Positions 26,175-34,114 are shown, numbered from the stretch's first letter. The stretch: DNA of 38,160 nucleotides from a virus (IMGVR_UViG_3300030085_002052:8111-46270), one strand, 5' to 3'. The notes: generated from the sequence alone by a model not told the origin. Numbers and translations: made by a program.

Positions 26175-27725
26175 ATGCCCTGGTTGAGTCTTGCTATATT
26201 GTTCCCGATCGCATGTTCTCTCGGCATCTTCTTCCTTCCAGAAGGTAATAAGGTTGTCCGATGGTATGGATTGGGAGCGTGTTTAATTACGTTCATCATC
26301 ACGGTAGCAGGGTATATCAATGGATATGATCCCTCTATCAGTGGTCTACAAATGGCAGAGAGGATCTCGTGGGTTCCTTCACTAGGACTCACCTGGTCTG
26401 TGGGTGCAGATGGTTTGTCAATGCCCCTTATTCTGCTGACAAGTTTTATTACAAGTCTGGCAGCACTTGCTGCTTGGCCAGTTACATTCAAACCTAAACT
26501 GTTCTACTTCCTGCTGCTTCTGATGGCAGGTGGTCAGATCATGGTCTTTGCAGTTCAAGATTTGATCTTGTTCTTCTTGTCATGGGAATTGGAACTTGTT
26601 CCTGTGTATCTCATGATTGCAATCTGGGGAGGTAAAAATCGCCAGTATGCTGCTACGAAGTTCATTATCTACACTGCAGGAAGTTCTCTGTTCATTCTTA
26701 TTGCTGGACTGGCGATGGGATTCTGGGCAGGTGGTGGTGCTCCCAACTTTGAGTACACCACTCTGATGCAGCAAGGATTCCCAAAGAACTTCCAACTCTG
26801 GTGCTATGCAGGATTCTTGATTGCCTTTGGCGTCAAACTCCCTATTGTACCAGTTCATACATGGTTGCCTGATGCTCATGGTGAGGCAACTGCACCAGTT
26901 CACATGCTTCTGGCAGGTATTCTTCTCAAGATGGGTGGATACGCACTTCTGCGATTCAACTGTCAACTGCTGCCTGAAGCACATGCGGTGTTTGCACCGC
27001 TCCTAATTGTTCTTGGCGCTATCAATATCATCTATGCAGCACTTACTTCGTTTGCACAAAGGAATCTTAAGAAGAAGATTGCTTACAGTTCTATTAGTCA
27101 TATGGGATTCGTTCTCATTGGCATTGGTAGTTACAGTGCTCTCGGCACCAGTGGTGCCATGCTTCAGATGATCAGTCATGGTCTGATTGGTGCATCCCTA
27201 TTCTTCCTGGTGGGTGCTACCTATGACAGGACTCATACTCTCCAGTTGGACGAGATGGGTGGTGTCGGTCAGAACATGAGGGTTATGTTTGCTCTGTGGA
27301 CAATGTGTTCCATGGCATCTCTTGCCCTTCCAGGCATGAGTGGATTTGTGAGTGAGTTGATGGTCTTTGCTGGATTTGCAACTGACACGATGTATGGTTT
27401 GCCATTCCGTATTATCATGTGTGCAGTTGCTGCTATTGGAGTTATCCTGACTCCGATCTACCTGCTCTCGATGCTGCGCGAGATCTTCTATGGTAAACCC
27501 AATCCAGAACTGGTCTCCCATACAAACTTGGTTGATGCAGAACCTCGTGAGGTTTATGTCGTCAGTGCTTTGCTTGTCCCTATCATCGCGATTGGACTCT
27601 ATCCAAAGTTTATGACAGATGTTTACAAGAGTTCTATCGATGCTCTTGTTGCCCGCGACTCAGCACCGTTGATTCGTGAGAAGGCATCGCCATTTACGGT
27701 GAGGTACACCGCACCAACTGTATAA
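26175..27725 (+). CDS. ndhD: NAD(P)H-quinone oxidoreductase subunit 4 (NdhD1-type)
   Basis: A 516-residue, strongly hydrophobic antiporter-like subunit of the cyanobacterial NDH-1 complex in the thylakoid membrane, with about 14 membrane helices. It is full-length for the family. It keeps the proton-pathway residues E138 (in [17 protein letters not shown]) and K221 (in [18 protein letters not shown]), and the stretches [17 protein letters not shown] and [16 protein letters not shown] are typical of the NdhD1 type, used in respiration and cyclic electron flow around photosystem I. No frameshift or internal stop is present. The ATG lacks a clear ribosome-binding site. Third codon positions look richer in C and G than in nearby structural genes. 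Neighbours are phage genes, so it is an auxiliary metabolic gene taken from a host. Confidence 0.93.
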
Positions 27726-27733
27726 GTGGCACA

Positions 27734-27755
27734 GGGGGCATTGCCCCCCTTTTTT
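27734..27755 (+). terminator. Rho-independent terminator after ndhD
   Basis: GGGGGC (27734-27739) pairs with GCCCCC (27743-27748) around ATT; one C and six T follow. It is nearly identical to the terminator upstream of ndhD. Confidence 0.92.
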
Positions 27756-27760
27756 ATGGT
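27743..27760 (+). repeat. 18-base direct repeat, copy 2
   Basis: Identical to 26129-26146. A TATACT hexamer follows at 27762-27767, about 27 bases before the GTG of the next gene. Confidence 0.9.
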
Positions 27761-27793
27761 GTATACTTACTGCATACAACGATCTTCGCACTC

Positions 27794-29587
27794 GTGTCCC
27801 TCGTCAACATCTACTTCGATACTGCCGAAAACATCACTGTACCATCCTTCAATGTTGGTCAGACTCGCTTCGCTTGGGAGCATCGTCATCGTGGAAGTGA
27901 TTATGGTAAGGCAAACCAGCGTGGTGCTCAATTTGAATCCAAGTACATTCGCTGCCGTTGGTGGGAGGATGTATCTACTCGTGATGATGGTCATGATGGT
28001 GGTCACGATAAGATTATTCATGCATGGTTGGACAAACAAGTTGGTATTAAGAGACTTGGTGCTAAGAACTCTGAGACTTTTGAGTACGATCCAAAGCGAT
28101 ATAATTTGGACATCATCGGTGAGATGATCCATGAGCAATTCTTCGCGGGTAAGGAGAAGGTGTATGAAGAATTCAAACCACGTCCATATCAGCAGAAGTT
28201 CCTCAATAAGATTGCATGGTGTACTAGTAACGAGTTCCTGCTGTTCGCTAAGTGCCGTGCAGGCAAGTCTGCAATGGTCTTGAAGCACATTGTCGATACC
28301 AACTATAAGGTATCGCTGGTTTGCTCCCTCCAGAAGTCTCCTGAGGGGTCTTGGAAGGATGATTCGGACAAGTACTTCCCTTCAGTCAAGTATATCTCTC
28401 TCAAGGATCCTGGTTGGGAGACTTTCCTTGAATACTGGAGTAAGCGTGATGTGAATGTCGTCCTCTGGGGTACAGTTCAGAGTTGCTTGAAGCGTCTGGA
28501 CAAGATTAAAAACGTTGACTTTGTTGCTTTTGATGAGTCGCATATTGGTGGTAATGCCAAGATGTTTAACACACTGCGTGAGGAACTTGATACTCGCATC
28601 TGCTACATCTCTGGCACTGCTCATAAACTTGCTCTGAAGTTCCCAGAAGATAATCAGAAGTTTGTCTACACTTACTTTGATGAGCAACAAGACGTTCAGC
28701 GAGGGGTCTTCAAGCGTCCTAAAATGAATGTTGCTGTTGCCAAGTATCAGACCGCTGCATATCAGGAGATCTTTGGTAATGATCCTGATGCCATGAAGAA
28801 CATCTTCACGATGAAGGGTAAGGAGTTCCTTCATGAAGGTCTGGTGAGAGAGTTCATCCGCAACTACTTTGGACCACAACGCAATATTCGTATTGGTGAC
28901 CGTCTACTTCAAGGTAATTATCACATGATGGCACTGCCTAGTGTTCCAGCATGTCATGCATTCCAGAAGTTGGTTGAGTGCTATTATCCAGCATTGGTTG
29001 TCACATCGGATCAGAATAAGAATCAAGAGGACATCAATCTATTCTTGGATGAGCATCCTAAAGCACTGATCATCACTCAATCTGCAAATGTTTTGGGTGT
29101 GACTGCCAAGAAGATTGATACGGTTATCAACTGTCGTGGTGGAGACTCAATCGAGTTCTGGACCCAACTTGCCTTCCGTGGAGGATCTGGTGATCATGAC
29201 TGGTGGGTCATTGATTTTGCTGCTCAGAGGTGCCTACGTGCCCTTCACTCAGCGTTCCAAGTGGCATGTGATAGCAATCCCTCTCTGTCAGAGTTCAGCG
29301 TTGTGGACTTCACTAACATCCATGAATGGAATGATGGATTCCAGGAAGTAAACAAGGAAGCGTTTGAAGATGCTCTGGCAGCAGATGTTGAGGGAAGCAT
29401 CTCCACGGTGACTAGTATTATTGAATCACTAGATCTAAGTGATTTGAAAGACTTCAACCTTCGTCAGAAGTCTGCTCTCACCACAGTTGTGAAGGAGGCA
29501 CAGTTGAATGACAATGGTGCCAACAATCAAAGTTGCGTTGTGATGGAGGTAGATCGAGCAAAAAAGCAGACGACCTTGACACTCTGA
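27794..29587 (+). CDS. SF2 helicase with N-terminal GIY-YIG/T5orf172-like region
   Basis: A 597-residue protein from a GTG start; no in-frame ATG lies near. Residues about 3-85 (VNIYFDTAENITVPSFNVGQ, then HDKIIHAWLDK) resemble small GIY-YIG/T5orf172-like domains, weakly. Residues about 130-500 are a superfamily 2 helicase core: motif I FAKCRAGKSAM, motif II VAFDESHIGG, motif III ISGTAHK, and a motif VI-like QLAFRGGSGDHDWWVIDF. The layout recalls single-chain restriction-modification enzymes. The 0-frame stop at 29587 follows an A_AAA_AAG slippery site and strong hairpin, so a fraction of ribosomes should continue into the methyltransferase as a 1,048-residue fusion. The helicase alone would be the other product. 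Confidence 0.75.
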   Translation: MSLVNIYFDTAENITVPSFNVGQTRFAWEHRHRGSDYGKANQRGAQFESKYIRCRWWEDVSTRDDGHDGGHDKIIHAWLDKQVGIKRLGAKNSETFEYDPKRYNLDIIGEMIHEQFFAGKEKVYEEFKPRPYQQKFLNKIAWCTSNEFLLFAKCRAGKSAMVLKHIVDTNYKVSLVCSLQKSPEGSWKDDSDKYFPSVKYISLKDPGWETFLEYWSKRDVNVVLWGTVQSCLKRLDKIKNVDFVAFDESHIGGNAKMFNTLREELDTRICYISGTAHKLALKFPEDNQKFVYTYFDEQQDVQRGVFKRPKMNVAVAKYQTAAYQEIFGNDPDAMKNIFTMKGKEFLHEGLVREFIRNYFGPQRNIRIGDRLLQGNYHMMALPSVPACHAFQKLVECYYPALVVTSDQNKNQEDINLFLDEHPKALIITQSANVLGVTAKKIDTVINCRGGDSIEFWTQLAFRGGSGDHDWWVIDFAAQRCLRALHSAFQVACDSNPSLSEFSVVDFTNIHEWNDGFQEVNKEAFEDALAADVEGSISTVTSIIESLDLSDLKDFNLRQKSALTTVVKEAQLNDNGANNQSCVVMEVDRAKKQTTLTL

Positions 29588-30939
29588 AGAAGCAGACTGT
29601 CAAGGCACTCCTGGAATCCATTCCTCTGACTATGTTCTATATTATTCGTAGTGGTCAGAATGTGTATTCCATCAATGATGTGATCGGATCTCATATCTAT
29701 CCATCTGTTACTGGAGACAATGAAGGTATCCTCTCTGAAGTCATCTCAAAGAATCCTCGTAGTGTAGAACTCCTGACTCGTCGGATTGGTTTGGTGACAA
29801 ACAGCATTCAGAAGAGCATGAGGGAGTCAGTCTCCAAGACTATTGATAGTCTGTCGGTCTCATCTGAGATTCAGAGAGCAATTCCTGCACAGTTGCTTGA
29901 CAATATGATCAATGACTGTCAAGATATGAGCAGCACCTACATGTTCGGTGATCCCAGTGGTTCTCACTCTGCTCGACTCCTGGAACATGGTATTGATCCC
30001 AGCAGTCTCACCGTTTGGGAGAGTTGCGATAGTCATCGCAATCGTGTAGGATATATTGACAAGCAGATTAACGTTGTTGCCGCCCATCCAGACATGAAGT
30101 TCACCGCCATTCTTGCCAATCCCCCATACCAGGATCCGACCAAGAAGGCACGGAACAATAAACTGTGGACTAAGGTGGTTGAGCAGCATCTGGATATGGT
30201 TGCTCCTGGTGGTGACATGTGTGAAGTCACTCCTGCATCTGTGTTGGGTAACACGGGTAAGGGTAAGAAGTTTATGCAGTTGTTCTCTACGATCTACAAC
30301 CTCAAACTCATTGACTACACTGCTGATGATTACTTCACTGAGGGTGTAGATATCTGTCGCTGGCATCTGGTGAATGAACCCTATCAGGGTAAGACTACAG
30401 TGATTACTCATGATGGGACCTTCACCTGGGACCTTCGCGATGGTCTGCCCCTCTTCGGTGATGCTGCTCTCAAGCACTCTATCCTCGATAAGATTGCAAA
30501 CTCAAACCATCCTCGTATTCCTTTGAAGATTGGTCAGGAGATTGCCAATGAGGACTACGTTCCTGATGGTAAGTATGAGGTCTTCAAGACTGGTAACAAG
30601 GTTGCTCGTACCAACGTGGTCCCAAACACTGGAGATGTGCTAAAGTTCATCGTACCGTTCTCCAGCACTTACAAGAAGAGGTTTGTCTCTAATGGATTTG
30701 TTGGTATGCTTAATGTTTGGTGCCCTATTCCTTCTCAAGAGGAGGGAACGCGCCTTAGTGAGATCTTTGATAATCCGATCATTCGGTTTTTTGTGGAGAA
30801 TTATAAGAGGACTTCGGGATTTACTCCTGCTATTAAAAATGCGGAAGTACCTGACATCACGAACTATGAGGATCTGCCTGGTCAATTTGGTCTCACCTCA
30901 GAAGAATTGAACTACCTGCAGAGAATCAATGTCATCTAA
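29533..30939 (+). CDS. DNA adenine methyltransferase-type protein, made by -1 frameshift
   Basis: An open frame of 468 codons; its translated part most likely begins at 29566, after frameshifting from the helicase, because only TTG (29533) or a late ATG (29632) could start it independently. Residues about 140-165 (TYMFGDPSGSHSARLLEHG) lie where a SAM-binding motif I would be but are degenerate. Motif IV is TAILANPPYQD (about residue 190), typical of N6-adenine methyltransferases of the Eco57I/type ISP kind. Later regions (GMLNVWCPI; FVENYKRTSGFTPAIKNAEV) look like target recognition. Joined to the helicase it resembles a one-chain restriction-modification enzyme. The next ORF overlaps its 3' end by 11 bases. 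Confidence 0.75.
   Translation: MRCDGGRSSKKADDLDTLKKQTVKALLESIPLTMFYIIRSGQNVYSINDVIGSHIYPSVTGDNEGILSEVISKNPRSVELLTRRIGLVTNSIQKSMRESVSKTIDSLSVSSEIQRAIPAQLLDNMINDCQDMSSTYMFGDPSGSHSARLLEHGIDPSSLTVWESCDSHRNRVGYIDKQINVVAAHPDMKFTAILANPPYQDPTKKARNNKLWTKVVEQHLDMVAPGGDMCEVTPASVLGNTGKGKKFMQLFSTIYNLKLIDYTADDYFTEGVDICRWHLVNEPYQGKTTVITHDGTFTWDLRDGLPLFGDAALKHSILDKIANSNHPRIPLKIGQEIANEDYVPDGKYEVFKTGNKVARTNVVPNTGDVLKFIVPFSSTYKKRFVSNGFVGMLNVWCPIPSQEEGTRLSEIFDNPIIRFFVENYKRTSGFTPAIKNAEVPDITNYEDLPGQFGLTSEELNYLQRINVI
29560..29605 (+). other. Programmed -1 ribosomal frameshift signal
   Basis: In the helicase frame the codons are gcA AAA AAG, the classic slippery heptamer A_AAA_AAG (29560-29566). After a 7-base spacer, CCTTGACA (29574-29581) pairs with TGTCAAGG (29598-29605); inside it, after one C-C mismatch, TCTG (29583-29586) pairs with CAGA (29593-29596) around a 6-base loop. 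A -1 slip continues in frame as GCA GAC GAC CTT into the methyltransferase ORF. All three standard parts of a -1 signal are present, with ideal spacing. Confidence 0.85.
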
Positions 30940-31345
30940 GAATCTCCACAATCAAAAGCATGGGTCTACCATTGAACGCTCTGATGAGCGCATCAGTCAG
31001 ACTGCGGAGGTCTTTACTCCCATCGCTCTGATTGAGCAGATGATTCGGGAGATACCAGTGTCACAACTGAAGGATCCTGAGTCTAAGTTCATTGACAACT
31101 GTGCTGGTAGTGGTAACTTCCTTGTTTGTCTGTGTGAGACACTGCAGGAATATCACAGCAGAGATCACATCATCAACAACATGCTGTATGCTGTGGAGTT
31201 GATGGAAGACAATCATAAAGAGATGTGTAGGAGACTTGACATCCCTACAGATCACCCGCACTTCGTTTGTGCAGACGCACTTCAATATCATTACAGGTTT
31301 GATGGGACAACAGGACCTATCACAATGGATCAGTTCATGGTATAG
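30929..31345 (+). CDS. Methyltransferase motif-I protein, truncated before NPPY
   Basis: A 138-residue protein. ISQTAEVFTPIALIEQMIRE (about residues 23-42) and KFIDNCAGSGNFLVCLCE (about 53-70) are the N-terminal part and SAM-binding motif I of type I-like adenine methyltransferases. The chain ends at DALQYHYRFDGTTG and MDQFMV, just where the NPPY motif normally follows, so it lacks the catalytic motif. It overlaps the preceding methyltransferase by 11 bases and may be translationally coupled to it. It could donate a SAM-binding half, since the preceding protein has a weak motif I, or be a remnant. The stop codon lies within an extended -10 element for the next gene. Confidence 0.7.
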   Translation: MSSKNLHNQKHGSTIERSDERISQTAEVFTPIALIEQMIREIPVSQLKDPESKFIDNCAGSGNFLVCLCETLQEYHSRDHIINNMLYAVELMEDNHKEMCRRLDIPTDHPHFVCADALQYHYRFDGTTGPITMDQFMV

Positions 31346-33467: not shown

Positions 33468-33642
33468 GTTGGTTCATCTGCAACTACAGGCAATGCTTAG
33501 GGAGAATAAGTTCCCTAGCAGTGAGATCATGTATTGTGGTGAGAGGGATGGAGAGCATTGGTATCTGATTGGTGGTGAGCATGAAGTGCCAGTATCTCAG
33601 ATTGTAGATATCAATCCAGCAGATGATGATCAAGAAGTTTGA
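33442..33642 (+). CDS. Hypothetical protein, about 66 residues
   Basis: A small protein read in another frame over the end of the preceding ORF. Both ATG 33442 and ATG 33451 (MISRSELVHLQLQ) are possible; a GAGG sequence sits just before the first, and GGGA before the second. Features: RENKFPSSEIMYCGERDGEH then WYLIGGEHEVPVSQI, a short beta-rich unit. Its 3' end overlaps the next gene by 20 bases. Confidence 0.45.
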   Translation: MGTMISRSELVHLQLQAMLRENKFPSSEIMYCGERDGEHWYLIGGEHEVPVSQIVDINPADDDQEV

Positions 33643-34114
33643 AGTCAGCGAAAAAGTAACAGAGTATTTTACCCTCTTACTGAAGGTTTGTATGGCAAAT
33701 CCCGAAGTAATTGACTACAAGCAGAGTTCTTTGTCACCAAGTTGCTCTGCTACTCTTAATTTGTTGAATTTTAAACTACCTGATAAGTTTTATAACTATA
33801 CTGGCAGATTGTTAAAAAGATCAGAAGAGGTTACTGGTCAAATTCTAAAGTACCATTACATGCATATGGTAGATTATACCAATGGTGGTATAATGTCAAA
33901 GCACTCACACAAACACAACGAGGATTTTAGTTTTATACTGTACCTTAACGACTGTCTTGATGGTGCCACTGTTCTTCATCTAAACGAACAGTATAGGGTA
34001 ACTCCAAAAAAGGGTACGGTTCTACTATTCTCTTCGATGATTCCACATTCGTCTGAATACTCAAAAAGTAAACAGGTTTTTGTGGGTGGACTCAAAGTCA
34101 CAAAGGAGATTTAA
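33623..34114 (+). CDS. 2OG-Fe(II) oxygenase-like protein
   Basis: A 163-residue protein with SKHSHKHNEDFSFILYL (about residues 91-107), TVLHLNEQYRVTPKKGTVLL and FSSMIPHSSEYSK (about 136-148). The H..H...ED and PH blocks are the likely iron ligands of a compact 2OG-Fe(II) dioxygenase. The last arginine/lysine side chain needed for 2-oxoglutarate is probably in SKSKQVFVGG. It overlaps the preceding small ORF by 20 bases and abuts the next ATG. Substrate unknown. Confidence 0.65.
   Translation: MMIKKFEVSEKVTEYFTLLLKVCMANPEVIDYKQSSLSPSCSATLNLLNFKLPDKFYNYTGRLLKRSEEVTGQILKYHYMHMVDYTNGGIMSKHSHKHNEDFSFILYLNDCLDGATVLHLNEQYRVTPKKGTVLLFSSMIPHSSEYSKSKQVFVGGLKVTKEI

Follow-up and report, generated by a model that had tools for sequence, protein, structure and literature searches.

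Organization of the helicase and methyltransferase locus

The viral DNA analysed here (IMGVR_UViG_3300030085_002052:8111-46270; 38,160 nucleotides (nt), referred to below as the window), attributed to a marine cyanophage, comes from a virus record of 46,270 bases whose nearest named relatives are T4-like Kyanoviridae infecting Synechococcus. It carries a helicase and a DNA methyltransferase open reading frame (ORF) that lie in adjacent frames and meet at the heptamer A_AAA_AAG, within a predicted signal for -1 ribosomal frameshifting (Table 1). The frame-0 ORF, which is predicted to give the short product when no slip takes place, matches PHROG 22930 and the DNA-helicase PHROG 16 and has a motor fold matching LlaBIII, RadD and SNF2, while the -1 frame matches the C-terminal part of phrog_22930, the phrog_3689 DNA methyltransferase and Pfam Eco57I. 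The start codon of the helicase ORF is kept across relatives (GTG, TTG or ATG), and no clear ribosome-binding site accompanies it there. Without a slip translation would end after 597 residues, and with it a predicted product of 1,048 residues would join VDRAKK to ADDLDTLKK, giving the junction-spanning peptide ...VDRAKKADDLDTLK...

Table 1. Features of the frameshift locus and the adjoining gene, in coordinates of the window.
Feature	Position	Strand	Description
Frame-0 ORF	27794..29587	+	597 aa, GTG start; N-terminal domain of ~110 aa and superfamily 2 (SF2) helicase-like motor
Shine-Dalgarno-like GGAGG	29545..29549	+	10 nt 5' of heptamer
Slippery heptamer A_AAA_AAG	29560..29566	+	X_XXY_YYZ phase of frame 0
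-1 frame after slip	29566..30939	+	ORF open 29512-30939; coupler to ~29930, then N6-adenine methyltransferase-like domain with NPPY and C-terminal region
Stimulatory hairpin (predicted)	29574..29605	+	32 nt: 8 bp, one C-C mismatch, 4 bp, 6-nt loop
Frame-0 stop TGA	29585..29587	+	Terminates predicted short product
phrog_4376 protein	30929..31345	+	138 aa; methyltransferase-like motifs without NPPY; candidate partner

The heptamer is the sole in-phase copy within the helicase ORF, and codon shuffling gave a chance expectation of 0.003 in-phase heptamers in the 25-codon overlap. A 7-nt spacer (CAGACGA, 29567-29573) separates it from the hairpin, and folding of positions 29567-29620 gave -18.2 kcal/mol (z = -2.8). 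A sequence-only reading of the window had described the heptamer, its codon phase, the spacer and the hairpin as well as the slip into the methyltransferase ORF and the lengths of both products; all of these were confirmed, the latter from the reading frames, and the invariant Shine-Dalgarno-like GGAGG upstream had been overlooked. The same reading had noted that the methyltransferase ORF has no good start codon of its own, and indeed no ATG, GTG or TTG occurs in the -1 frame 5-13 nt after this GGAGG. A second in-phase A_AAA_AAG elsewhere in the window (34006-34012, within ORF 33623-34114) appears to be there by chance.

Conservation of the signal in related viruses

Relatives of the window were gathered as a clade by protein and pattern scans of IMG/VR (contigs are given below by L numbers), and conservation statistics were calculated from 16 distinct relatives over 1,037 ungapped codon columns. 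A scan of 2.9 million viral contigs found the cassette of GGAG or GAGG, heptamer and hairpin in 24 further contigs, all of them relatives, and returned only short-ORF or weak-fold chance matches outside this family, and a pattern scan of GTDB genomes returned no cellular homologues. The alignment of relatives that had been proposed as a check showed heptamer and hairpin to be kept, the heptamer forming the only run of at least three invariant third bases in all of the codon columns. Synonymous differences numbered 0 against ~41 expected at each of the codons GAG (-6), AAA (-1) and AAG (0), and NNA AAA AAG was invariant in every pair; for the GAG codon, identical in 16/16 distinct relatives, the expectation was 40.8. 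A 15-codon window scan of synonymous diversity ranked the site near the bottom, level with two other regions; codon-level invariance is the informative test and the window scan alone is not decisive.

The upstream motif is GGAG in all members except L020 (GAGG) and lies 10-11 nt before the heptamer, the range stated for Shine-Dalgarno-like -1 stimulators being 9-14 nt upstream (PMC5009743). Downstream of the heptamer, RNAalifold recovered the same hairpin unaided, and 6 of its 12 pairs carry compensatory two-sided changes that preserve pairing. The covariation score of the hairpin was 0.303 in comparison to 0.194 in shuffles, and slid controls collapsed. The hairpin begins 7-8 nt past the heptamer in the clade, and 11 nt past it in L045 and L057.

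Loss of the heptamer among relatives had been named beforehand as grounds for refuting the frameshift. Within the clade every member retains it; its loss was seen in more distant relatives, and as the hairpin was absent at the site in all three heptamer-less relatives tested (L030, L036 and L003), the two elements were lost together. A heptamer in the distant relative L054 was taken as chance, being displaced and missing from the sister contig L055. In the heptamer-less continuous L030 and L036 the cassette loss coincides with changes at both active sites, as Walker A is altered (CRSGKC and CRSGKN vs CRAGKS) and L036 has NAPY in place of NPPY.

Reversal of the reading frame within the clade

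Two layouts of the gene occur in the clade. In the shifted layout (11 contigs, window included) the fusion requires a -1 slip, and a frame-0 stop follows 0-8 codons after the slip site, which in L020 is a TAG immediately after the AAG of the heptamer. In the continuous layout (14 contigs) the helicase, the methyltransferase and the intervening coupler share one frame with A_AAA_AAG in the same phase, and in all of these members a -1 slip leads to a stop after a single codon (GTC TGA, GTC TAA or GAT TGA), which is retained though the frame-0 residues encoding it vary (Ser-Asp, Ser-Asn or Ile-Asp). Relatives with a continuous single frame had been considered a sign of sequencing error in the window; such relatives do exist, but they carry the same cassette together with an immediate -1 stop and are hence role-reversed, and therefore reinforce the frameshift rather than refute it.

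A protein tree of 1,053 columns showed that the shifted layout is polyphyletic, with at least three changes on the tree. A single shifted clade was rejected by the approximately unbiased (AU) test (p = 2.5e-7), and the shifted L034 is sister to the continuous L045 and L057 with full support. The state of the window clade in comparison to L009 is an apparent one-base deletion just 3' of a pre-existing heptamer (TCTGATGACC vs TCGATGACC). The ratio of non-synonymous to synonymous substitution (dN/dS) for the window against L007 and L008 was ~0.10-0.12 both before and after the site (0.10-0.11 for the -1 frame), which indicates that purifying selection acts both 5' and 3' of the junction. As the cassette was always kept through at least three reversals, selection appears to maintain the pair of short and long proteins rather than one particular frame. 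The repeated reversal also suggests an efficiency near 50%, at which either frame would yield a similar mix.

The conservation of heptamer, hairpin and upstream motif, the covariation of the hairpin and the purifying selection on both sides strongly support the -1 frameshift proposed by the sequence-only reading. We estimate at about 0.88 the probability that a dnaX-type -1 programmed ribosomal frameshift governs translation of this gene, with selection keeping both products, and the cassette, covariation, selection and reversal can be regarded as established by sequence comparison. Several points weigh against this interpretation. The hairpin of L045 and L057 is weak (z = -1.1), and more distant relatives (~40% identity) without the cassette either have one continuous frame or are divided into two genes at a point further downstream, so that two forms divided exactly at this position are not needed family-wide. 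In addition, the spacer is longer than the 5 nt of Escherichia coli dnaX, most of all in L045 and L057, and efficiency may therefore fall below 50%; experiments on E. coli dnaX with a hairpin from HIV showed that blocking of the A site ceased once the hairpin lay 13 nt from the P-site codon (PMC7282821).

Alternative explanations

The apparent deletion directly after an existing heptamer would also be expected from compensatory frameshifting, whereby the long fusion alone is of use, a slippery site that happened to lie upstream allowed a one-base deletion to be tolerated and the short product is a by-product. Heptamer-less continuous fusions in the family (L003, L030 and L036) point in the same direction. 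Continuous members of the clade, however, need no slip and yet retain the heptamer, GGAG, hairpin and immediate -1 stop, and with three independent reversals this explanation is considered unlikely.

Independent or translationally coupled initiation of the methyltransferase ORF, which would yield two separate proteins, has a precedent in the two overlapping genes of distant relatives (S-CAM7, ACG-2014f and several contigs), but the split in those relatives lies ~115 residues further downstream. Close relatives read continuously through the site, the earliest start codons in L034 and L020 fall within the conserved coupler, and the start codon that would be expected shortly after GGAGG is missing from the -1 frame, all of which make separate translation very improbable. 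An equally small chance is given to slippage of RNA polymerase on the A6 run, with ordinary translation of extra-A mRNAs yielding the fusion. The A-run does sit at the junction and this is the mechanism of Thermus dnaX, but the bacterial cases cited use about nine A or T (PMC5009743) while the run here is always A6G, and the conserved codon phase, Shine-Dalgarno-like motif and covarying hairpin at ribosomal spacing indicate the ribosome.

Although a break at a homopolymer, if seen in one contig, would resemble a classic sequencing error, error or gene decay was rejected on account of 10 further shifted contigs from three lineages, an A-run of identical length in shifted and continuous forms, and the dN/dS values on both sides of the site.

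Domain composition and relation to Type ISP enzymes

Pfam analysis identified an Eco57I methylase in the second part of the protein and, for many members of the family, ResIII in the motor; NPPY is present and methyltransferase motif I is atypical (GDPSGSHS). The sequence-only reading had the helicase and methyltransferase joined at the frameshift. Their fusion by the slip is supported, but phrog_22930 spans the helicase and the first 126 residues past the junction, and the break is therefore placed ~115 residues before the methyltransferase border, in a predicted disordered linker. An AlphaFold2 model was made on the continuous homologue L009 (mean predicted local distance difference test (pLDDT) score 72.8), where the slip site corresponds to the end of this linker (549-585 of L009), ahead of a helical bundle termed the coupler. 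According to this model the short form would consist of the N-terminal domain and motor, and the long form would add the coupler, the methyltransferase and a poorly modelled C-terminus, much of 881-1041 being below pLDDT 50, where a Type ISP enzyme would carry its target-recognition domain.

The best PDB match to the long-protein model was the Type ISP enzyme LlaBIII (1,135 columns, E 6e-18). The likeness to one-chain Type ISP enzymes (LlaGI, LlaBIII; PDB 4xqk) that the sequence-only reading had pointed out thus stands for the predicted fold and for a single chain in which motor, helical coupler and N6-adenine methyltransferase follow one another, but not for a recognisable Mrr nuclease. The N-terminal domain was modelled alone with confidence (pLDDT 87.5) and had no significant structural match in the PDB by Foldseek and no Pfam match to an Mrr-family (PD-(D/E)XK) nuclease; because no Mrr nuclease such as Type ISP enzymes have was recognised, we do not class the enzyme with that type. 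It further differs in its length (~1,040-1,055 aa in comparison to 1,484-1,517 residues for the LlaBIII chain in 4xqk), in being phage-encoded, and in having a predicted second, short product and a separate NPPY-less methyltransferase-like neighbour. The N-terminal domain does show a motif pattern and order of strands and helices suggestive of GIY-YIG nucleases, which have a beta-beta-alpha-beta-alpha fold with GIY/YIG, Arg and acidic motifs, with a Pfam GIY-YIG E of 0.03 in one member that is below the cut-off. A GIY-YIG nuclease was unconfirmed by Pfam, Foldseek and hhalign, the hhalign profiles holding very few sequences.

Homologues from the cyanophages S-CAM7, ACG-2014f and MA10 likewise combine helicase-coupler and methyltransferase (helicase 38-45% identity) but are encoded by two overlapping genes in S-CAM7 and ACG-2014f and by one continuous gene without the cassette in MA10. 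Those of S-CAM7 and MA10 are annotated as 'type II restriction-modification system restriction subunit'. A distant homologue of 32% identity (L077:3913-6816) covers the entire fusion, interrupted by a single in-frame stop codon.

Neighbouring genes

The phrog_4376 gene adjoins the helicase/methyltransferase gene in nearly every relative reaching that far, and lies ~600 nt after it in MA10; its conservation extends from the window as far as S-CAM7, MA10 and ACG-2014f. Proteins of this family (133-138 aa) share a conserved EVFTP, a DN-AG-GNF motif resembling S-adenosylmethionine-binding (SAM-binding) motifs and further motifs, and end before NPPY (alignment A5). Given that the fusion enzyme combines NPPY with an atypical motif I, the phrog_4376 protein may be its partner.

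On the other side, a G+C-rich terminator-like hairpin with a T-run (27734-27767) lies immediately 5' of the helicase and in several relatives overlaps a promoter-like TTGACA...TATAAT. A full-length cyanobacterial gene for NdhD (NADH dehydrogenase subunit 4) occupies 26175-27725, between a tail-fibre S74 gene and the helicase, and its product is ~71-81% identical to NdhD of Synechococcus and Prochlorococcus. Apart from the window, only the two relatives closest to it (L005 and L006) have the gene at this place, and it is absent from other relatives whose contigs span the gap; cyanophage ndhD has been mentioned previously from metagenomes (PMC10452541).

Discussion

The signal described here resembles that of E. 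coli dnaX (tau/gamma), which has the same A_AAA_AAG heptamer with an upstream Shine-Dalgarno-like motif and a downstream stem-loop, and in which the short form lacks the C-terminal domains and ends, as in the continuous-frame members, after one codon and a stop. Role reversal through a single-nucleotide change has also been described for bacterial dnaX (PMC5009743), whereas the phage clade shows at least three reversals inside one clade. The genes are unrelated, and the -1 frameshifting measured in E. coli dnaX is ~50%.

By analogy, the host lysine tRNA, probably a single tRNA-Lys(UUU), would re-pair one base back at A_AAA_AAG, with the slip promoted by pairing of the upstream GGAGG with 16S rRNA and by a pause of the ribosome at the downstream hairpin. 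Ribosomes that do not slip would terminate at 29587 to give the N-terminal domain and SF2 motor, and those that slip would add the coupler and the N6-adenine methyltransferase with its C-terminal region; in continuous-frame relatives the long form would come from frame 0 and the short form from a slip into the immediate stop. A_AAA_AAG is slipperiest where one tRNA-Lys(UUU) decodes both codons (PMC5009743). Synechococcus WH7803, which may not be the host of this phage, has one tRNA-Lys, of anticodon UUU, among its tRNAs, and a pattern search of five other picocyanobacterial genomes found the UUU gene and no CUU gene.

The phage frameshifts that are well documented come mainly from capsid genes and genes for tail-assembly chaperones (PMC10885494). 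As the sequence-only reading had surmised, the literature searched, a limited collection in which absence is no proof of novelty, described no programmed frameshift in a restriction-modification-like enzyme of a phage. The nearest case is CR.NsoJ138I, a fusion of control protein and restriction endonuclease suspected of -1 frameshifting close to a stop in the -1 frame, although its proteins and site (GCAAAAA) are different and its predicted short product was unseen in E. coli (PMC3850674).

That slippage takes place, and at what efficiency, is inferred, as is the proposal that the pair would form or regulate a Type ISP-like DNA translocase/modification enzyme during infection; the idea that the phage sets a ratio between a helicase-only and a modifying form is likewise inferential. 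It is conceivable, at somewhat less than even odds, that short and long forms are an obligatory pair made by near-50% dnaX-type frameshifting, with selection on the pair and not the frame, and that they may co-assemble, perhaps with the NPPY-less neighbour, like tau and gamma in the clamp loader. Judging from its domains, a phage DNA translocase-methyltransferase could label the DNA of the phage and be directed against host or rival DNA that lacks the mark, and the short motor form could join or compete within the same complex.

In summary, a conserved dnaX-type cassette lies in a phage restriction-modification-like enzyme, where such genes risk being annotated as broken or as a single continuous enzyme and the second product is missed either way. 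The repeated frame reversal amounts to a natural experiment, in which the frame-0 product flipped while the signals for both products stayed, and it offers a built-in test of whether the efficiency is near 50% and of the role of the short, motor-only form.
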